Position numbers and translations under genes: made by a program. 64,000 nt of DNA from Blautia sp. MSJ-19 (lineage in GTDB: Bacteria; Bacillota; Clostridia; Lachnospirales; Lachnospiraceae): the NCBI RefSeq assembly GCF_018918125.1, contig NZ_JAHLQA010000039.1:62001-126000 (forward strand), given 5' to 3'. Under the pieces are notes generated by a model, which did not search any database, was not told the DNA's origin, and saw only the letters and a list, made by a program, of their open reading frames with translations. This document shows, piece after piece, positions 6,778 through 42,180 of the stretch (position 1 is its first letter; every line of letters starts with the position of its first letter).

Positions 6778-7410
6778 ATGAAAATTGTAATAGTGGATGA
6801 TGATTGCCTGGTTACAGAGGCTTTGAAAACAATCCTGGGTATTAATGAAGATATACAGGTGGTTGCAACTGGAACAGATGGCAGGGAAGCGGTAGAGCTG
6901 TTTGAAATACATAAACCAGATGTGTTGTTGATGGATATTCGAATGAAAAATATGAATGGCCTGGAAGCTTCCGGGAAAATATTAAAAGAAAATCCAGAGG
7001 CAAATATATTACTTCTTACTACATTTCTGGATGACGAGTATATTGTAAAAGCGCTTCGGCTTGGAGCAAAAGGTTATTTACTTAAGCAGGATTATGCAAA
7101 TATTCTACCGGCTATTCGTGCGGTATATTCGGGACAGACAGTATTTGGGCAGGAAATAATGTCCAAAATACCGGACTTAATACAAGAAAAAGCAGGATTT
7201 GACTATAATTCCTGCGAAATTAATGAAAGAGAGAAAGAGATTATCTGCCTGATTGCAAATGGGTACAGCAACAAAGAAATCGCAGCGAAAATGTATTTGA
7301 GCGAAGGAACAGTTCGGAACTATTTGAGTGCGATTTTGGATAAATTGCAGCTCCGCGATAGAACACAGGTGGCGATTTTTTACTATAAGCACGGTGATAT
7401 GCACGAATAA
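6778..7410 (+). CDS. Response regulator, NarL/FixJ family
   Basis: A 210-residue two-domain regulator. The receiver (1-120) has the acidic pocket VDDD (6-9), the phosphoacceptor D53 in LLMDIRM, the switch threonine in LLLTTF and the lysine in GYLLKQD. The LuxR-type helix-turn-helix (about 145-205) shows the NEREKEIICLIANGYSNKEI pattern and the recognition-helix region EGTVRNYLS. It starts three bases after the kinase stop, so the pair is co-translated. The likely target is the divergent promoter region at 5460-5660. Confidence 0.94.
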   Translation: MKIVIVDDDCLVTEALKTILGINEDIQVVATGTDGREAVELFEIHKPDVLLMDIRMKNMNGLEASGKILKENPEANILLLTTFLDDEYIVKALRLGAKGYLLKQDYANILPAIRAVYSGQTVFGQEIMSKIPDLIQEKAGFDYNSCEINEREKEIICLIANGYSNKEIAAKMYLSEGTVRNYLSAILDKLQLRDRTQVAIFYYKHGDMHE

Positions 7411-7982
7411 TATACAACTCGAGAATGTATATTTATAAATGAAATATGCATTCTCAAGAAGGACAAGAATAAGAAAACAGAGTAAAAAGAGACGATAAAA
7501 GGGTACGAAAACAAACGATGATGGATGCGAATATGCACAGATGCACAAGAAAGACGGATGATATGAAGATATTTTGAAGACAATATACTATAGTTGAGTA
7601 AATAAATGAATTAAAAATGAGAGGATAAAAAGACATTTGTACTTGAAAGAAAGACACTCCGACTTATGCCTTTTTGAAAATAAATAAAACAGAAAATTCA
7701 AATGAAACAATGGAATATTCAGAAAACATTATAAAAAGTGTATAAATTACGAGGGCGTGATATTAGAATAGCTGGCTGATTCCTAAAATGTTTATGCAAA
7801 ATGTTTTTTGGCATTGGCAATTTACGATGATTAAATGCCAGATATTATGAATTATTGGTTATACTTTTCGACTATTGCTTGTTCTATGGCATTGGCAATT
7901 TAATGTGCTTGAAATGTCTAATGTTGTGGATCTGCGTGCGTAGCCATGACTTTTACACAGATAATCTATGAGATGTTTACGC
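7411..7982. other. AT-rich non-coding stretch before the repeat array
   Basis: No convincing gene in 570 bases. A stem of 12 pairs (7421-7432 with 7444-7455, one G-T pair) lies just after the response regulator but lacks a T-run. The 15-mer GGCATTGGCAATTTA occurs twice, at 7810-7824 and 7888-7902. Around 7860-7900 the text is loosely similar to part of the 648-bp repeat that follows (ATACTTTTCGA), so this may be the eroded remains of an older repeat unit. Confidence 0.5.
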
Positions 7983-8278
7983 AAATATCCTGAGTTGTTA
8001 CAATTTGCCATGAGTAAAATGCTTGTTTGTATAGACATACTTTTCGAATTGTTGATTTCCGTAATGCTCGATGTTTGATGTAATATATCCCATATCATTA
8101 AAAGGTTGTTTGCTATGCCTGATAGATGATTTCATGATTTGCGTAGCTATGGAGCTGTTAAGTACTGATTATTGTAATGCTTTAAGTGAAATATCTTACG
8201 GTATTGGGCACTTTACTATGCACAAAAGCTGGATATTGTGATTGCCTGGTTATGGCTTTTGACTACTAATTTTTGCAA

Positions 8279-8294
8279 TGTTTCACGTGAAACA
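8279..8294. promoter_or_regulatory. parS: parS site 1 (perfect)
   Basis: TGTTTCACGTGAAACA, identical to the 16-bp parS palindrome of Bacillus subtilis bound by ParB (Spo0J). It lies inside repeat unit 1, 1.8 kb upstream of parA. Confidence 0.95.
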
Positions 8295-8446
8295 TTTACC
8301 AGAGGTGGCTCGTTGTCTGAAAAAAGCGATTCCTTCTGGCCACCGCGATTCTCCTTAGATACGGGTATAAACAGCAATGAAAAAGAACTGTGCTGCAACA
8401 TTCTGCAGGAGTTCATGGGAGTTCTTAGAGATGTTCTGACTGCGTA

Positions 8447-8498
8447 ATACATAATAATTACACTGTGTGAGCGAAGCGAGTTTGTGATTATTATGTAT
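8447..8498. repeat. Conserved hairpin in repeat unit 1
   Basis: 15-bp inverted repeat: ATACATAATAATTAC (8447-8461) pairs with GTGATTATTATGTAT (8484-8498), with one wobble pair and a 22-base loop. The same structure recurs in units 2 and 3. No T-run follows. Confidence 0.8.
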
Positions 8499-8927
8499 GT
8501 TCCTGGCAGACAGGTTATCTCATAGAACTTCCGAACGACGAAGCCGTTGCAATCACAGTTCTTTATACATTGCGTGAATAATACCCGAGTAAGTCTGATT
8601 TTTTGTTTTTGAGTCTATAATATTTCACGTAAATATCCTGAGTTGTTGGAACTTGCCATGAGTAAAGTGCTTGTTTGCATAGACATACCTTTCGAATTGC
8701 CGACTTCCGTAATGCTCGATGTTGAATGTGAAATACCCCATATTATTAGAAGATTGTTTGTTATGCCTGATAAATGCTTTCATGATTTGCGTAGTTATAG
8801 GGTTCGTTAAGTGCTAATCATTGTAATACTTTAAATGAAATGCCTTACGATATTGGGCGCTTTATTATGCGCAAAAGCTGGATATTGTGATTGCCTGGTT
8901 ATGGCTTTTGACTACTAATTTTTGCAA

Positions 8928-8943
8928 TGTTTCACGTAAAACA
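8928..8943. promoter_or_regulatory. parS-like site 2 (one substitution)
   Basis: TGTTTCACGTAAAACA, parS with a single G-to-A change at position 11 that breaks the palindrome next to its centre. ParB binding is probably weakened, by analogy with the known sensitivity of the central bases. Confidence 0.8.
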
Positions 8944-9095
8944 TTTACCAGCGGTGGCTCGTTATCTGAAAAAAGCGATTCCTTCTGGCCACCGCGATTC
9001 TCCTTAGATACGGGTATAAACAGCAATGAAAAAGAACTGTGCTGCAACATTCTGCAGGAGTTCATGGGAGTTCTTAGAGATGTTCTGACTGCGTA

Positions 9096-9147
9096 ATACA
9101 TAATAATTACACTGTGTGAGCGAAGCGAGTTTGTGATTATTATGTAT
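9096..9147. repeat. Conserved hairpin in repeat unit 2
   Basis: The same 15-bp inverted repeat as in unit 1 (9096-9110 with 9133-9147), sequence unchanged. Confidence 0.8.
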
Positions 9148-9574
9148 GTTCCTGGCAGACAGGTTATCTCATAGAACTTCCGAACGACGAAGCCGTTGCA
9201 ATCACAGTTCTTTATACATTGCGTGAATAATACCCGAGTAAGTCTGATTTTTTGTTTTTGAGTCTATAGTATTTCACGTAAATATCCTGAGTTATTACAA
9301 TTTGCTATGAGTAAAATGCTTGTTTGTACAGATACATTTTTCGGATTGCTGATTTCCGCAATGTTCGATGTTGAATGTGAAATACCCTATATTATTAGAA
9401 GTTTGTTTGTTATGCCTGATAAATCTTTCATGATTTACGTAGCTATGGGTTCGTTAAGTGCTGATCATTGTAATGCTTTAAGTGAAATATCTTACGGTAT
9501 TGGGCACTTTACTATGCACAAAAGCTGGATATTGTGATTGCCTGGTTATGACTTTTGGCTACTAATTTTTGCAA

Positions 9575-9590
9575 TGTTTCACGTGAAACA
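9575..9590. promoter_or_regulatory. parS: parS site 3 (perfect)
   Basis: A perfect 16-bp parS palindrome in repeat unit 3, at the same place within the unit as sites 1 and 2. Confidence 0.95.
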
Positions 9591-9742
9591 TTTACCAGCG
9601 GTGGCTCGTTATCTGAAAAAAGCGATTCCTTCTGACCACCGCGATTCCCCTTAGATACGGGTATAAACAGCAATAAAAAAGAACTGTGCTGCAACATTCT
9701 GCAGGAGTTCATGGAAGTTCTTAGAGATGTTCTGACTGCGTA

Positions 9743-9794
9743 ATACATAATAATCACACTGTGTGAGCGAAGCGAGTTTGTGATTATTATGTAT
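9743..9794. repeat. Conserved hairpin in repeat unit 3
   Basis: The same inverted repeat (9743-9757 with 9780-9794). Here the left arm reads ATACATAATAATCAC, which turns the wobble pair of units 1 and 2 into a Watson-Crick pair and makes the stem perfect. Confidence 0.8.
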
Positions 9795-9948
9795 GCTCCT
9801 GGCAGACAGGTTATCTCATAGAACTTTCGAACGACGAAGCCGTTACAGAGACAGTTCTTTATACATTGCGTGAACAATACCCGAGTCCTTCTATTCACTC
9901 TTTGTCAAATATAAACAATAATCCACCGAAAACTTTCTCCTTTTTTAA

Positions 9949-9964
9949 TGTTTCACGTGAAACA
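9949..9964. promoter_or_regulatory. parS: parS site 4 (perfect), just upstream of parA
   Basis: A perfect parS palindrome outside the repeats, 101 bases before the parA start and just ahead of a TATAAT box (9993-9998). Its position suggests that ParB bound here could also affect transcription of parAB. Confidence 0.95.
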
Positions 9965-10064: not shown

Positions 10065-10832
10065 TTGGGAAGAGTAATAGCAGTAGCAAATCAGAAAGGT
10101 GGAGTTGGTAAATCAACTACCGCAATTAATCTTTCTGCTTGTCTTGCCGAAAAAGGTAAAAAAGTTCTTGCGATAGATATTGATCCGCAGGGGAATACTA
10201 CAAGTGGACTGGGAGTAGATAAAAATAATGTTGAGAATACATTATATGAGTTACTCCTTGGGGAAGCAGAAGCAAAAAACACCATTGTCAAAGATGTGGT
10301 TGAAAATGTGGATCTGATTCCTTCTAATGTAAATTTATCTGGAGCAGAGATTGAACTGATTGGTGTGGATGATAAGGAATACATCATGAAACGAATCATA
10401 GACAAGGTTCGTAGAAAATATGATTATATTATCATGGACTGCCCGCCGTCTTTGAATATGCTTACAATCAATGCTCTGACAGCTGCCAATTCTGTATTGG
10501 TTCCGATTCAGTGCGAGTACTATGCACTGGAAGGTCTGTCCCAGCTGATACATACAATTGATCTGGTAAAGGAACGTTTGAATAAGAAACTTGTCATGGA
10601 AGGCGTTGTCTTTACTATGTATGATGCAAGAACTAATCTTTCTCTGCAGGTTGTAGAAAATGTAAAAGATAATCTTCAGCAGAATATCTACAAAACAATC
10701 ATTCCGAGAAATGTCAGACTGGCAGAGGCACCAAGTTATGGTCAGCCAATTACCTTGTATGACAGCAGATCATCAGGAGCAGAGGCATATCGTCTGCTTG
10801 CAGAAGAAGTAATCAACAGGGAGGGCGAATAA
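10065..10832 (+). CDS. parA: Chromosome partitioning ATPase ParA (Soj)
   Basis: A 255-residue ParA/MinD-family ATPase that moves or separates ParB-parS complexes during chromosome segregation. The deviant Walker A KGGVGKST (11-18) with the signature lysine, the A' motif IIMDCPPS and the RNVRLAEAPS segment are all present. The length fits the chromosomal Soj type without an N-terminal DNA-binding extension. The start is a TTG two bases after AGGGAGGATGAA. The stop overlaps the parB ATG in TAATG. Four parS or parS-like sites lie in the 1.8 kb upstream. Confidence 0.97.
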   Translation: MGRVIAVANQKGGVGKSTTAINLSACLAEKGKKVLAIDIDPQGNTTSGLGVDKNNVENTLYELLLGEAEAKNTIVKDVVENVDLIPSNVNLSGAEIELIGVDDKEYIMKRIIDKVRRKYDYIIMDCPPSLNMLTINALTAANSVLVPIQCEYYALEGLSQLIHTIDLVKERLNKKLVMEGVVFTMYDARTNLSLQVVENVKDNLQQNIYKTIIPRNVRLAEAPSYGQPITLYDSRSSGAEAYRLLAEEVINREGE

Positions 10833-11770
10833 TGGCTGGAAAGAAATCAGGACTTGGTAGAGGCCTGGATGCATTGTTTCCGGAAAAAACAGTGCAAAAT
10901 AAACCGAAAACAGTAAAAACTGTAAAGCCGACCAAACCAGTTATAAGTGAAGAAAGCAAATCCAGTCAACAGGAAAACGGAACGGGTGAGAGAATGATGA
11001 AAATATCCATGATTGAACCGAACCGTGAACAGCCACGCAAGAAATTTGATGAAGATGCACTTTTGGAATTATCTGAGTCCATTAAACAGTATGGAATTTT
11101 GCAACCACTTCTCGTGTCCGATAAGAAGGACTACTATGAAATAGTTGCAGGAGAGAGACGCTGGCGTGCAGCCAAGATGGCAGGACTCAAAGAAGTGCCG
11201 GTAGTTGTCAAAGAGTTTTCATCACAGGAAATAGTGGAAATTTCTCTTATTGAAAATATTCAGAGAGAAGATCTGAATCCGGTTGAAGAAGCGATGGCAT
11301 ATAAACGTCTGATTGATGAATTTCATTTAAAACAGGATGAAATTGCAGAGAGAGTTTCAAAGAGCCGTACGGCGGTTACAAATTCTATGAGACTTTTGAA
11401 ACTTGATTCTCGTGTACAGCAGATGATGGTGGATGAAATGATTTCAGCAGGACATGCGCGTGCAATTCTTGCGATTTCAGATCCGGAAAAACAGTTTAAT
11501 GCAGCTATGAAAGTGTTTGATGAGAAACTGAGTGTACGCGAGACAGAAAAGTTGGTAAAAAACATTCTTGCACCGGCTAAGAAGAAAAAAGTTACTTCTG
11601 ATCCAACAGAAGATGCAATTTATGAAAGCCTGGAAGAAAAAATGAAAGGTATTACGGGAACCAGAGTCTTTATTCACAGAAAGAAAAACAACAAGGGAAA
11701 GATTGAAATAGAATATTATTCCAGAGATGATTTGGAGAGAATTATTGATTTATTTGATTCCATTGGTTAA
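10832..11770 (+). CDS. parB: Chromosome partitioning protein ParB (Spo0J)
   Basis: A 312-residue CTP-dependent DNA clamp that loads at parS. After a basic, poorly ordered N-terminus (SGLGRGLDALF, 5-15, the ParA-contact type) come the CTP-binding motifs GERRWRAAKMAG and ENIQREDLNP. The helix-turn-helix region (KQDEIAERVSKSRTAVTNSM) follows, then a C-terminal dimerisation domain. The ATG overlaps the parA stop. It should bind the parS sites at 8279, 9575 and 9949. Confidence 0.97.
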   Translation: MAGKKSGLGRGLDALFPEKTVQNKPKTVKTVKPTKPVISEESKSSQQENGTGERMMKISMIEPNREQPRKKFDEDALLELSESIKQYGILQPLLVSDKKDYYEIVAGERRWRAAKMAGLKEVPVVVKEFSSQEIVEISLIENIQREDLNPVEEAMAYKRLIDEFHLKQDEIAERVSKSRTAVTNSMRLLKLDSRVQQMMVDEMISAGHARAILAISDPEKQFNAAMKVFDEKLSVRETEKLVKNILAPAKKKKVTSDPTEDAIYESLEEKMKGITGTRVFIHRKKNNKGKIEIEYYSRDDLERIIDLFDSIG

Positions 11771-13670: not shown

Positions 13671-14540
13671 TTGCACAGCTTTTTAAAAGCAGTTGGCTTT
13701 TCTAAAGTGAACAGACGGGAAGAGATGAAAGAGATCATTCTGGATGTTATCAAAAACTACGATGAGAAAAAAATCGTAGAAGATCATCCAGATGGTGTCT
13801 TTGCTGAATTTTCCAGATGTTATGGAAGCGACTGTGGAATTACTGTCTGTGGTCAGTATGATGATGACAACAGGTTTCACGTGGAATATTATTATCCTTT
13901 TTTCAGAGGATCCGGGGTAACGACCCAGGAGCCGGTGACAGTAGAGAGGCATGCAGACAAAGATGCTTTTTCTGGCGCCTGTGATGATCTGAGAATTGGA
14001 ATTACTTTGATTTTTTACCTTCAAAATGCTGCTGAGTATATGAAGGAACGAAAAAAACAGGAAATAGGAAATCAGGCATTGACGTTATCTGGATTAGCAG
14101 GGGAAGGAAAAATTCTTTTCCCTGTTTTAAAGGATAAAGAGGCTGTCAAGGTTGAAAAAGAAAGTACCAAAAACAGAAGTTCGCTGATTGCAGCTGCCAG
14201 AAATGGTGATGAGGAAGCAATGGAGAGCCTTACTATGGAAGAAATGGATACGTACTCTATGTTGTCAAACAGAATTGTACATGAAGACATTTTATCTATA
14301 GTAGATTCCTATTTTATGCCATATGGTATTCAATGCGATCAATATAGTATCCTGGGAGAAATTGTGGATCTTCATTTTGTACAGAATGATATTACAGATG
14401 AAGAACTCATCCAGATGACGTTGGAGAGCAACAATATGCAGTTTGATGTTTGCATTAACCGGGCAGACCTTCTGGGTGATCCGGCAATAGGAAGACGGTT
14501 CAAAGGAACGATATGGCTTCAGGGCAGACTGCATTTTTAG
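13671..14540 (+). CDS. DUF3881 family protein
   Basis: A 289-residue cytoplasmic protein that I recognise as the Lachnospiraceae DUF3881 family from its start (HSFLKAVGFSKV) and layout; no function is known. TTG start behind GGAGGTGTACT, 18 bases after serS. No membrane segment or signal peptide. At 13873-13888 the coding sequence contains GGTTTCACGTGGAATA, matching parS at 13 of 16 positions. Confidence 0.65.
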   Translation: MHSFLKAVGFSKVNRREEMKEIILDVIKNYDEKKIVEDHPDGVFAEFSRCYGSDCGITVCGQYDDDNRFHVEYYYPFFRGSGVTTQEPVTVERHADKDAFSGACDDLRIGITLIFYLQNAAEYMKERKKQEIGNQALTLSGLAGEGKILFPVLKDKEAVKVEKESTKNRSSLIAAARNGDEEAMESLTMEEMDTYSMLSNRIVHEDILSIVDSYFMPYGIQCDQYSILGEIVDLHFVQNDITDEELIQMTLESNNMQFDVCINRADLLGDPAIGRRFKGTIWLQGRLHF

Positions 14541-25801: not shown

Positions 25802-27919
25802 ATGGGATTACAGAAATATAGAAATGACGTATATGCAGGCGTTCTTGGAAAAATCCTTGGTGTTTATCTGGGACGTCCTGTAGAGGGATGGACATTTGAA
25901 AAGATTAAAGATACTTTTGGAAAAGTTGCTTATTACAAAAACCATAAAACAGGAGCACCGCTGATTGTTCCGGATGATGATATATCAGGAACATTTGCAT
26001 TTTTCAGAGCGTTGGAGGATTCCGGATATAAGGCTGACATTACAGCAGAGGAGATTGGCAATGCATGGCTGAATTATATTGTTGAAAACGAGACGATTCT
26101 CTGGTGGGGAGGACTGTGCAGAAGCACAGAACATACGGCGTATCTGAGACTGAAAAATGGCATTAAAGCACCGGAAAGCGGCTCCATAAAGTTAAATGGA
26201 CAAAGTATGGCAGAGCAGATCGGTGCTGAGATTTTTATCGATACCTGGGCAATGGTAAATCCGGTAAATCCGGAAAGGGCTGCAAAGATGGCAAGAGAAG
26301 CGGCCAGTGTAAGCCATGATGGAGTAGCCGTTGATGCTGCAGTATATCTGGCAGTTATGGAGGCAATGGCTTTTGAAGAAAAAGATATCAATAAGCTTCT
26401 GGATGAGGGGCTGAAATATATTGATAATGATGATTTTAAGAAACTGATCGCTGAACTGAGAGAGAGATGTGCAAAAGCAGCAGACTGGTATGAAGTAAGA
26501 CAGTGGATCGCAGAGGAACATGGATATGATAAATATCCTGGAAACTGCCCGATGATCACAAATCATCTGACACTTCTTATGGCGTTTATCATGGGAGGAG
26601 ACGATTTCCAGAAATCCTGCATGATCGCATGCTCAGCCGGCTGGGACACAGACTGCAACAGTGGAAATGTAGGATGCCTGAACGGAATCAGACTTGGCCT
26701 TGATGGTTTTAACAGAGGAGCAGATTTGCGAAAACCGGTGGCAGACAGGCTTTATGTAGTTACAAGTGACGGTGGGTCCTGTATTTCTGATGCAGTCATA
26801 GAGACTCGTAAGATTCTCAGAGCTGCGGCAGCATTAAATGGTGAAACGATTGATCTTCCGGAAGAGAGATTTGCATTTGAGTACCCTGGTTCTGTTCAGG
26901 GAATCATTCCTTATGAAGGCGATAAAGAAGAACAGGTACTTACAAAAATTGAGAATTCATATGAAACGACAGGAGAATACGGATGCAGAATTTCTTATGA
27001 AGGTCTTGCAAGTGGGGTTCATGCTTCGGCAGCAGTAGATACGTTTATCGATCTGAAGCCAAAGGGAAAAGAAGGAACCAGTTATTTTGATGTTCTGTGC
27101 TGCCCGACTCTTTACAGTGGACAGGATATTAAAATGGTAGTTCATGCACCGGCAGAAAAGAATCCTGAACTGGAATTATTTCTTGAATATTTTGATGGGA
27201 ATGATGAACTGCAGAATTTGTACTGTGGAAAAAATCAACTGAAGCAGGGAATGAATACAATCACTATGAGAGTACCTGATACAGAAGGCCATCCGATTTT
27301 CAGACTTGGTATTCGGCTTACAAGTGAGGAGAGACTGGATGGAAGCATTATCCTTAAATCTCTTGACTGGTCCAATGCACCGGCACTTTACAGAATGGGA
27401 AAATCCATGGAGATGACGCCTTCGCTGACACCGTGGACAACAACAACTTCCTGGTTGAAAACTTTTGTTTCATCGGCAGATCACTTCAATCCGGATTATA
27501 CAGTTACATTCTCTGTCTGCCATGCAGTAAAGAACGGAGTTGTAACAACCGGAACTGCAGACTGGGCAGATTATTCTGTAAAAAGCACGATTACTTTTTC
27601 TCAGCAGGATGCAGCAGGACTTGTTGCAAGGGCAAAGGGACACAGAAGATATTATGGGGCTGTACTTACAGAAGGATGTGCACTGATCTATCGCCAGCAG
27701 GATGAAAAAAGAACTGAAATTGCCAGAAAACCTTATGATTATAAAATCGACCATACGTATGATGTTGAATTCAAAGTAAAAGGTGACACCCTGACAATGC
27801 TTATTGATGGTGAGGCAGCTGTAGAGGGAAAAGATGCTGCTTATGACAGAGGGCAGGCAGGATTTGTGGTTGACAGTGGAGCAATACTTGGAGATGGATT
27901 TGAAATTCGCAGACTGTAG
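25802..27919 (+). CDS. ADP-ribosylglycohydrolase-like protein with C-terminal beta-sandwich (copy 1)
   Basis: A 705-residue cytoplasmic protein without a signal peptide. Residues 8-350 match the ADP-ribosylglycohydrolase (ARH/DraG) fold: the first Mg site in VPDDDISGTF (D58-D60), the second in SAGWDTDCNSGNVG (D282, D284). These enzymes cleave N- or O-glycosidic bonds to ribose. The C-terminal third (about 500-705) looks like a concanavalin/LamG-type beta-sandwich similar to DUF1080-type modules (YDVEFKVKGDTLTMLIDGE), and residues 360-500 form another beta-rich module. Placed after an importer and before kinases and nucleoside enzymes, it probably cleaves an imported ribosyl compound. Protein de-ADP-ribosylation is possible but fits the context less well. 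Confidence 0.8.
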   Translation: MGLQKYRNDVYAGVLGKILGVYLGRPVEGWTFEKIKDTFGKVAYYKNHKTGAPLIVPDDDISGTFAFFRALEDSGYKADITAEEIGNAWLNYIVENETILWWGGLCRSTEHTAYLRLKNGIKAPESGSIKLNGQSMAEQIGAEIFIDTWAMVNPVNPERAAKMAREAASVSHDGVAVDAAVYLAVMEAMAFEEKDINKLLDEGLKYIDNDDFKKLIAELRERCAKAADWYEVRQWIAEEHGYDKYPGNCPMITNHLTLLMAFIMGGDDFQKSCMIACSAGWDTDCNSGNVGCLNGIRLGLDGFNRGADLRKPVADRLYVVTSDGGSCISDAVIETRKILRAAAALNGETIDLPEERFAFEYPGSVQGIIPYEGDKEEQVLTKIENSYETTGEYGCRISYEGLASGVHASAAVDTFIDLKPKGKEGTSYFDVLCCPTLYSGQDIKMVVHAPAEKNPELELFLEYFDGNDELQNLYCGKNQLKQGMNTITMRVPDTEGHPIFRLGIRLTSEERLDGSIILKSLDWSNAPALYRMGKSMEMTPSLTPWTTTTSWLKTFVSSADHFNPDYTVTFSVCHAVKNGVVTTGTADWADYSVKSTITFSQQDAAGLVARAKGHRRYYGAVLTEGCALIYRQQDEKRTEIARKPYDYKIDHTYDVEFKVKGDTLTMLIDGEAAVEGKDAAYDRGQAGFVVDSGAILGDGFEIRRL

Positions 27920-27944
27920 GAAGTGAATCCGGAGGGAAGGACAG

Positions 27945-30038
27945 ATGATAAAACAGTTTGAAGATAAAATTTATGCAGGTGTCCTTGGAAAGATACTGGG
28001 AGTGTATCTGGGACGTCCGGTAGAGGGATGGAGTTACCAGAAAATCCAGGATACTTTTGATGAAGTAAAATATTATGTACATGATAAAGTGGGGGTTCCG
28101 CTTATTGTGGCAGATGATGATATTTCCGGGACTTTTGGCTTTTTCAGAGCAATCGAAGATAATGGATATGACAGAAATCTGCCGGCGAGAGCATTTGGTG
28201 ACACCTGGTTAAACTATATTATCGAGAACAGAACGATTCTCTGGTGGGGCGGTCTTGGCCGTTCTACGGAGCATACGGCATTTCTGAATCTGAAAAATGG
28301 AATGGATGCACCAGAGAGCGGATCCATGAAAGTGAATGGAAAAACTCTTTCCGAGCAGATTGGTGCACAGATTTTTATTGATGCGATTGCAATGGCGTGT
28401 CCGGATGATCCGGATCTGGCAGTAGACCTTGTGAGAAAAGCGGCGAGTGTAAGTCATGACGGAATCGCAGTTCAGGCAGCCTGCCATCTGGCAGCACTGG
28501 AAGCGATGGCATTTACAGAGAAGAATGTAGATATACTTCTGGACAGAGCTGCAAAATATGTGACAGATCCGCTTCTTACGGAGATTATTGCTGACGTAAG
28601 AGATATCTGCAGTAAGGAAAAGGACTGGAGAAAAGTAAGAGCTTATCTTGATCCTAAATATGGTTATGGCGTATGGCCAGGATGCTGTCATATGGTTCCG
28701 AACCATGCGATGGTGATTGCATCTATTTTGCTTGGCGGAGATGATTTTCAGAAGTCTATCAGTATCGCTGCTTCAGCGGCATGGGATACAGACTGTAATG
28801 CAGGTAATGTGGGGGCATTTAATGGAATCCGACTTGGAATTGATGGAATCAATGCGGGAGCAGATTTTCGGACACCAGTTGCAGACCTTATGTATGTGGT
28901 AACTGCAGATGGCGGTTCTGTTGTGACAGATGCTGTACTGGAAACAAAAAGGATTGTAAATACAGCAGCTCATCTTGCAGGAGAAAAAGTTGAGATATCT
29001 GATGAAAGATATACTTTTGAATATCCGGGGGCTGTACAGGGATTTACCCCCTGTGAGTTTGATCATGGATGCATGAGTGCGGTATCTGTACATAATAAGA
29101 ATGAAAACAGCCGGGAGAATGCACTGGTAATTGACTGTGACTGTGTTGCAGACGGTGTGACTGCAAATGTCTCCACACAGACATTTATAGATTTTTCGAA
29201 AGTTGCACTGAATTTCTCTACGGTAGCTTCGCCTACACTTTATTCTTCTCAGACAGTGAAGACAAAGGCGAGTGTGGGAAAAGATCAGGAAGTATTTCTG
29301 ACACCATATATTCTTTATTATGATCTTGATAATAACAGTCAGGTTATTTATGGAGAACCGTGGAAACTTACTCAGGAAGTACAGGAATTTTCCTGGAAAG
29401 TGCCGGATACAAAGGGTATGGCCATTTACAAGCTGGGTTACCAGGTTTCTTCAGTTAAGAGATTTTGTGGAAACGTATTTATTTACGGTATTGACTGGAA
29501 GGGGGCACCGACTGACTTTGCACAGAGAGGTATGCTGATGACTTCTATCTGGAATACAAATCCTCTGTGGCTGGCAAGTTTTGCAAGTTCGGCGGCGCAG
29601 TTTGCAGCTGATTTTAACCAGACTTACTGTGTGTCTCATCAGGAGAACGACGGACTGGTAACGATTGGAACAAGAGACTGGAAAGATTATAAGATAGGAT
29701 CTACGGTTTATTACAATCTGCATAAGGCGGGTGGAATGGTGATCAGAAGCGTCGGACATAAGAGATATTATGGTGCTGTACTTACCGGCTATAATAAAGC
29801 ACAGATCTTTGTTCAGAAAGATAAAGAGCGCAGAATACTCGCAGAAAAGGAATTTAAATATGAGGAAGACAAGCCTTATAAACTGGAGTTTGCTGCATAT
29901 GGAGATCAGTTAAGTTTCATGGTAAATGGGGAAAAGATTTTAACAGCAAATGATGAAACTTATTCATGTGGCGGTGCAGGCTTTACCATTTCCAGAGGAA
30001 CTATGACTTGTGACAGCTTTATCGTACAGGGAGAATGA
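27945..30038 (+). CDS. ADP-ribosylglycohydrolase-like protein with C-terminal beta-sandwich (copy 2)
   Basis: A 697-residue paralogue of the preceding gene product with the same three-part layout. The metal sites are conserved (VADDDISGTFGF near 57-68; SAAWDTDCNAGNVG near 280-293), so both copies should be active. The N-terminal regions are very alike (KIYAGVLGKILGVYLGRPVE against DVYAGVLGKILGVYLGRPVE) while the middle and C-terminal modules differ more, which suggests an old duplication and different substrates. ATG behind GGAGGGAAGGACAG, 25 bases after copy 1. The next gene starts one base after the stop. Confidence 0.8.
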   Translation: MIKQFEDKIYAGVLGKILGVYLGRPVEGWSYQKIQDTFDEVKYYVHDKVGVPLIVADDDISGTFGFFRAIEDNGYDRNLPARAFGDTWLNYIIENRTILWWGGLGRSTEHTAFLNLKNGMDAPESGSMKVNGKTLSEQIGAQIFIDAIAMACPDDPDLAVDLVRKAASVSHDGIAVQAACHLAALEAMAFTEKNVDILLDRAAKYVTDPLLTEIIADVRDICSKEKDWRKVRAYLDPKYGYGVWPGCCHMVPNHAMVIASILLGGDDFQKSISIAASAAWDTDCNAGNVGAFNGIRLGIDGINAGADFRTPVADLMYVVTADGGSVVTDAVLETKRIVNTAAHLAGEKVEISDERYTFEYPGAVQGFTPCEFDHGCMSAVSVHNKNENSRENALVIDCDCVADGVTANVSTQTFIDFSKVALNFSTVASPTLYSSQTVKTKASVGKDQEVFLTPYILYYDLDNNSQVIYGEPWKLTQEVQEFSWKVPDTKGMAIYKLGYQVSSVKRFCGNVFIYGIDWKGAPTDFAQRGMLMTSIWNTNPLWLASFASSAAQFAADFNQTYCVSHQENDGLVTIGTRDWKDYKIGSTVYYNLHKAGGMVIRSVGHKRYYGAVLTGYNKAQIFVQKDKERRILAEKEFKYEEDKPYKLEFAAYGDQLSFMVNGEKILTANDETYSCGGAGFTISRGTMTCDSFIVQGE

Positions 30039-42071: not shown

Positions 42072-42104
42072 TTTAACAAAGCGTTGCATTTTGAGGCGTT
42101 AAAT

Positions 42105-42180
42105 AAATATTGGGCAAAGCAGTCGAAAGGCTGTGACGCAAAGCTATAGGGCCTGTAAGATGGTAGCCAGTTGCAGAAAC
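42105..42180 (+). ncRNA. Cyclic di-GMP-I riboswitch (GEMM-I)
   Basis: The core matches the GEMM-I consensus in order: GGGCAAAG, a P1b stem GCAGTC-GAAA-GGCTGT closed by the GAAA tetraloop, the invariant GACGCAAAGC, GGGCCT, and the receptor-side GGTAGCCAGTTGC. This RNA class binds the second messenger c-di-GMP. It lies between a promoter and a terminator, in the leader of the hybrid kinase gene, so c-di-GMP should control whether that kinase is made. Whether ligand binding turns expression on or off cannot be read reliably by eye. Confidence 0.9.

Follow-up and report, generated by a model that had tools for sequence, protein, structure and literature searches.

The DNA directly upstream of parAB in the window (the whole 64,000-nucleotide stretch of the Blautia sp. 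MSJ-19 genome analysed here) contains three direct repeats of about 648 bp, at 7976-9890, each carrying one parS site (perfect, one mismatch and perfect, in that order). Judging by its sequence and setting, this array very probably acts as a ParB-loading centromere. The fuller reading, which we hold with fair confidence, is that tandem duplication has enlarged what is a multi-site, origin-proximal centromere of the chromosomal ParABS system, and that the palindrome and spacer of each unit are probably passengers. The features concerned are:

7786..7905, + strand, perhaps an older, degenerate unit, with neither parS nor palindrome (weak alignment)
7976..8623, + strand, repeat unit 1 (direct-repeat search, unit alignments)
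8624..9272, + strand, repeat unit 2 (direct-repeat search, unit alignments)
9273..9890, + strand, repeat unit 3 (homology stops near 9890)
8279..8294, unstranded, parS 1, perfect (motif search)
8928..8943, unstranded, parS 2, one mismatch in the right half-site (motif search)
9575..9590, unstranded, parS 3, perfect (motif search)
9949..9964, unstranded, parS 4, perfect, about 100 bp upstream of the parA start (motif search, flank comparison)
10065..10832, + strand, parA, AAA_31 / ParA-type ATPase, TTG start (domain search)
10832..11770, + strand, parB, with ParB_N, HTH_ParB and ParB_C (domain search)

The parS consensus, TGTTTCACGTGAAACA, is present without mismatch at 8279-8294, 9575-9590 and 9949-9964, and with a single change in the right half-site at 8928-8943 (GTGAAACA to GTAAAACA); three perfect sites and one with one mismatch are well above chance. 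In the window as a whole six matches were found at up to 3 mismatches, against 0.40 expected, a number reached by 0 of 100 shuffles; the two remaining ones, at 13873 and 15754, each depart from the consensus at 3 positions. The four sites lie within 1.7 kb directly upstream of parAB and are all the parS-like sites (at most 2 mismatches) of the 3.57-Mb Blautia assembly. Their spacings of 649, 647 and 374, as given in the original prediction, were reproduced exactly by the motif search, and the fourth perfect parS that it placed next to the parA promoter is indeed there, about 100 bp ahead of parA. The stretch around this last site is widely kept, matching 22 other Blautia loci over 55-75 bp and the close relative G029 over 337 bp (23 of the 31 others).

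The ParA and ParB domains are intact and their genes adjacent. ParB scores above the TIGR00180 cut-off and below that of Noc (TIGR04285), is 87% identical to that of Blautia sp. Marseille-P3087, the nearest named record, and has the stretch 'GERRWRA', which we take to have a role in CTP binding. The surrounding genes look chromosomal: ParA, ParB and DUF4446 are followed by a seryl-tRNA synthetase ORF, the last read by eye. On the same contig dnaA lies at C11:47562-48053 and the array parS sites at C11:70279-71964, about 22 kb apart, which makes the array origin-proximal if dnaA is taken as a proxy for oriC. A review places most parS sites in the ori domain and states that a single parS can be enough elsewhere (PMC7022226). 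Two other elements of the window may be recorded here, a c-di-GMP-I riboswitch at 42103-42178 on the + strand (61.2 bits), and direct repeats of 198 and 300 nt at 25832-28494 (71-73% identity, offset 2140 bp) that are perhaps duplicated genes.

The array region comprises some 2.65 kb without a convincing gene, between the end of a response regulator gene at 7410 and the start of parA at 10065. Two three-copy direct repeats, one of 300 nt at 95-97% and one of 175 nt at 76-87%, with offsets of 647-649, together form a single unit of about 648 bp, with 92-93% identity between copies in gapped alignment. Repeat and motif searches thus agree with the earlier description of three such repeats with parS at the same internal position, and homology begins at 7976 rather than 7983. 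Near 7790-7900 there is no more than a hint of a degenerate fourth unit, an alignment score of 93 against a best of 80 among 100 shuffles. The number of three units is that of the assembly, which consists of 47 contigs totalling 3.57 Mb; the exact copy number is not proved by such an assembly, the more so as units 1 and 2 are identical over 246 columns. An assembly artefact is unlikely, since the copies differ from one another in unit-specific ways and a comparable array is present in G029, whose assembly consists of two contigs. DnaA-box-like sites are no more frequent than chance (20 against 21.7 expected) and none lies within the array; a reading as replication iterons was rejected.

A plasmid or phage origin of the array was likewise rejected: it had no match in 72,556 plasmid records or in 50,697 phage records. 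The original prediction had called it a plasmid-style centromere on a chromosome, and in form that description fits; given the plasmid search and the chromosomal gene neighbourhood, the array is a variant of the chromosomal ParABS centromere and not a plasmid centromere. The accompanying premise that chromosomal parS sites are usually single and scattered did not hold in the loci surveyed, most of which have several near parB. Among loci with that much sequence, at least two perfect parS within 4 kb upstream of parB were found in 24 of 28 Blautia loci and in 40 of 60 others, mostly Lachnospiraceae. Having at least two parS near parAB is common in Lachnospiraceae; the tandem units are the unusual part. 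Among the titles and abstract openings surveyed, no description of parS tandem arrays in Blautia was seen.

G029 (locus L035) has the same gene neighbourhood as the window, on a 3.3-Mb contig, with its array about 25 kb from dnaA. The array has units of 558 bp and seven parS-like sites at up to 2 mismatches, five of them perfect, along with four palindromes of the window's family and four in the opposite direction that match the palindrome model weakly (21-33 bits); one N stands inside it (L035, 8678), and outside the array that genome has two more sites, each with two mismatches. The Marseille-P3087 record (L052) shows the same parS layout and palindrome model scores as the G029 array. Upstream of the last parS block the window region matches only G029 among the Blautia loci compared, and the G029 array, its match to the window apart, matches only G021, in three stretches of 41-55 bp. 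The palindrome regions of the window and G029 align at 75-82% identity, whereas within each species the copies reach about 91-96%; growth or homogenisation of the two arrays thus took place separately.

For a wider comparison, ParB was searched for in 45 Blautia genomes at least 85% complete and matched at E 1e-60 or lower in 32 of them; the DNA upstream of parB was examined in all 32 loci, the window and L035 included (four have 4.1 kb of sequence or less). In five of them parS lies in clear tandem repeats: the window genome (648-bp units), G029, G179 (about 405 bp), G041 (nine units of about 102 bp) and G049 (four units of 39 bp). G052 makes a sixth case with only a 72-bp match at 76%. In the other 26 no repeat containing parS passed the threshold; four of the 32 loci lie on short contigs. 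The comparison of unit number among relatives, proposed earlier, thus came out both ways, the close relative having an array and most of the Blautia loci examined showing none. Among 66 other loci, mostly Lachnospiraceae, three have repeat matches of 45-91 bp. A different arrangement was seen in six loci of Lachnospiraceae MAGs (L114, L115, L119, L120, L122 and L123), which have four to seven parS-like sites (at most 2 mismatches) 215-979 bp upstream of parB, mostly TGTTTCACATGAAACA or its reverse complement. In five of these the cluster is downstream of the ParA motif, apparently between parA and parB; in L114, where no ParA motif was found, the contig begins too near. This group is possibly a lineage with shifted ParB specificity.

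The units of the five Blautia arrays have little common sequence beyond parS. G041 and G179 have common flanks on both sides (862 bp at 82% upstream, 150 bp at 94% beside parA), and between them their arrays give only one match, of 103 bp at 73%; G054 has the upstream flank and last parS in common with both but no array. Common flanks around units of about 102 bp, units of about 405 bp and no array at all would fit satellite-like turnover. It may be, and we put this forward tentatively, that Blautia chromosomal centromeres evolve as satellites do, with arrays of different monomers arising, spreading by unequal exchange or conversion and being replaced between species, and only parS under selection. 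Selection on parS within arrays is indicated by the sequence comparison for the diverged ones only. The three G179 units, chosen for carrying parS, are 68% alike outside it and 100% within, which 0 of 405 other 16-column windows equal (repeat matches show a fourth copy with parS, in alignments that include parS itself); the nine G041 units, all those of the continuous array, are 57% alike outside parS and 79% within, equalled by 0 of 64 windows. In G041, similarity is 77% at a 202-bp offset against 71% at 98 bp, a sign of a two-unit period. Only three of its nine sites have at most 1 mismatch and six have 3-5, so that many parS copies seem dispensable. In the window array parS is 95.8% alike and the rest 92.0%, with 310 of 572 windows at least as conserved; for G029 the corresponding counts in two alignments are 226 of 312 and 75 of 266.

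Most of the conserved sequence of the window unit outside parS is an imperfect palindrome of about 245 bp, present once per unit:

8345..8590, + strand, long imperfect palindrome copy 1, model core 8394-8555 (folding; model R1, 149.7 bits, this copy being itself among the model's input copies; covariation)
8994..9239, + strand, long imperfect palindrome copy 2, model core 9043-9204 (model; identical to copy 1 over 246 columns)
9641..9886, + strand, long imperfect palindrome copy 3, model core 9690-9851 (unlike copies 1 and 2 at 11 of 246 columns)

The region 8290-8600, spanning copy 1, folds with z -7.2. Between units 1 and 2 the palindrome shows 0 of 246 differences and the spacer 37 of 246 (p 3e-12), an identity for which gene conversion is the likeliest source, with constraint or assembly collapse possible. 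The claim that the repeat includes long conserved sequence outside parS is sound; its corollary, that something more than ParB loading may be selected, is not shown, because the palindrome that supplies the additional conservation is a member of a dispersed family with no tie to parS elsewhere, and because the identity of the palindromes in units 1 and 2 resembles gene conversion.

Diverged relatives of the palindrome occur elsewhere in both the window genome and G029. A model built from 18 copies (two from the window, three from the G029 array and 13 dispersed) gave 23 matches at E 0.001 in the window genome and 38 in G029, of which 19 and 31, the last few weak, remain without the arrays and reverse-strand double matches; a search with stricter filters found the family in 19 of 120 genomes, the window genome included. 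Of 52 pairs, 42 have changed on both sides. The share of cells that pair is 93.7%, whereas shuffles reach 76.0% and slid versions 34-40%; the structure was derived from that same alignment. The median arm span is 124 (47 Blautia copies with 60-bp flanks). The palindromes thus form a large group of hairpins dispersed in Lachnospiraceae, in which compensatory change is strong. Neither the family nor the array has a match at the gathering score in Rfam 15, and a known RNA family was rejected on that ground. No description of the family was seen among the titles and abstract openings surveyed. In the two genomes 15 copy pairs, 138-426 bp apart, are all ordered minus then plus, and one stands at the same site in both, between ABC-type ATPase and tex-like genes (names given by eye). 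The pair spacers in L186, L187, L195 and L197, and less clearly in others, have a common stretch like ACTTTATnnGGGGTAG, as seen by eye; a pair with its spacer may be one element. The copies in G095 (L164-L168, about 290 bp each) have an inner region of about 170 bp in common at 89-94% and more diverged outer arms, some copy pairs being beyond alignment and others 85-88% alike over 225-292 bp, yet the arms look complementary within each copy. A rule that the palindromes follow stop codons ended with upstream-of-gene counter-examples (L041, L165, L169, L170). PF01797, in which RAYT is indistinguishable here from IS200 transposase, has 2 matches in the window genome and 0 in G029, and is present in four of five further palindrome-bearing genomes, with none in G140.

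Long palindromes of other kinds also lie upstream of parA, in G004, G038, G052, G053, G058 and G179. Those of G053 (L154, 1306-1102 bp upstream of parB) and G038 (L161, 1272-983 bp) are very long and of other sequence, with -161 and -153 kcal/mol respectively when folded as RNA. Per 10 kb of intergenic DNA, long palindromes number 1.66 upstream of parA against 1.27 in the control for arms of at least 70 and 3.15 against 2.29 for arms of at least 40, the control being 20 stretches of 20 kb whose five long palindromes all lie in one stretch, and the method missing the palindromes of the window itself when arms of at least 70 are required. Per 10 kb of total length the figures are 0.60 against 0.12 and 1.15 against 0.23, a roughly fivefold density that counts against the passenger reading and arises because much more of the DNA upstream of parA is intergenic. 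For the same reason a cruder first control (34 hairpins in 165.6 kb upstream of parA against 2 in 52 kb of the window) was misleading. At the 30 other Blautia parA loci nothing matched the palindrome model with an E value of 0.01 or below (best E 0.34), and the only named parAB loci that the model matched are L052, which repeats the G029 array, and L060 (43 bits). A functional link between parS and palindrome was accordingly dropped as the main reading, in view of its absence at other Blautia parA regions, the one L060 match and the intergenic control, and the palindrome is probably a passenger or the driver of the duplication.

On the favoured reading, ParB would load as CTP-bound clamps at each perfect parS and then slide onto neighbouring DNA, and the resulting dense ParB-rich domain would engage ParA and SMC. 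Extra parS copies would make loading denser and more robust, with the one-mismatch site at 8928-8943 as a weak loading site. The loading, the sliding and the benefit of copies are modelled on known ParABS systems; the sites, the genes and their position are observed here. The palindrome and spacer would be DNA of the dispersed repeat family, present next to a parS at the time the segment was duplicated; a palindrome of this length could itself have promoted that duplication and, later, the gene conversion behind the identity of copies 1 and 2.

Several observations tell against this centromere reading and lend weight to neutral amplification, in which only the parA-proximal parS would matter and units 1-3 would persist by chance, perhaps as duplications caused by the palindrome: parS is not conserved better than its own unit in the window and G029, one of the three array parS sites is damaged, as are the six G041 sites mentioned above, 26 of 32 Blautia loci show no such array, and long palindromes occur in other intergenic DNA too. 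Amplification without function is nevertheless somewhat unlikely, since parS is the most conserved part of the diverged units in G179 and G041 and 24 of 28 Blautia loci retain at least two perfect sites within 4 kb of parB. We find it harder to believe that the palindrome is a working part of a composite centromere, for example a cruciform or protein-bound barrier limiting ParB sliding or anchoring SMC. It is true that in the window genome and G029 the palindrome copies come after parS at short distance and in the same orientation to parA, that the palindrome is better kept between units than the spacer, and that the family has compensatory changes in 42 of 52 pairs; but its 19 and 31 matches outside the arrays have no parS found with them, the parA regions of 30 other Blautia gave no match, long palindromes show no clear excess near parA per intergenic length, and conversion better explains the identity of copies 1 and 2.

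That the units encode a repeated structured RNA, with parS incidental, is very improbable. The strong folding (z -7.2) and the covariation speak for it, as did an excess of G-U over A-C on model-fitted columns (66 against 10 in A2). Strand-neutral re-counting cut most of that excess, so no RNA claim is made: the counts are G-T 178 against A-C 126 in 47 Blautia copies (p 0.003, though about 43 of the 178 may stem from one fixed column) and 69 against 66 in 21 copies of other genera, near the balance expected for pairing at the DNA level. Rfam gave no match, promoter-like sites number 14 against 13.1 in shuffles, and terminator-like sites are absent.

Against this background, the array that we read as an enlarged ParB-loading centromere resembles B. 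subtilis-type chromosomal ParABS in its 16-bp parS, adjacent ParA and ParB genes, position near dnaA and several clustered sites, and differs in having parS inside a long tandem repeat; the well-known chromosomal parS clusters are separate sites in unrelated DNA. With the iterated plasmid centromeres (F sopC with its 12 repeat copies, the pSM19035 parS heptads) it has in common a tandem repeat that multiplies ParB sites beside the par genes, but it is chromosomal, has 648-bp units in only three copies and matches no plasmid. The sopC unit is 43 bp according to a reference title in PMC9499535; the G049 array of four 39-bp units (L150) is very close to sopC in form. The dispersed palindromes are intergenic like ERIC/IRU, RPE and other long palindromic repeats, but the family is longer than ERIC (127 bp) or RPE (105-146 bp; both from PMC2229807), has diverged in sequence with pairing and bulges kept, and is often paired. 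At about 245 bp they are outside the 20-40 bp given for REP elements in PMC3733652, and membership in REP/BIME was set aside on size. A Hi-C map with a parS-linked pattern exists for B. coccoides YL58 (PMC10197239).

A parallel in evolutionary behaviour may be drawn to satellites. The Blautia arrays have lineage-specific units, conservation that in the diverged arrays is mainly that of the binding box, signs of homogenisation and, in G041, a two-unit period. Eukaryotic satellite centromeres consist of lineage-specific tandem units with a CENP-B box. The Blautia arrays have very few units and no chromatin mark, and this is an analogy only. The palindrome family is a separate lead. The usual picture of bacterial parS is of a small, fixed set of sites. 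Should one genus prove to keep expanding tandem arrays in its parS region and exchanging them for others, a bacterium with a simple three-part machinery could serve for the study of centromere turnover, and the number of parS sites that a chromosome requires, with the reason for it, would become testable across related species at a single locus.
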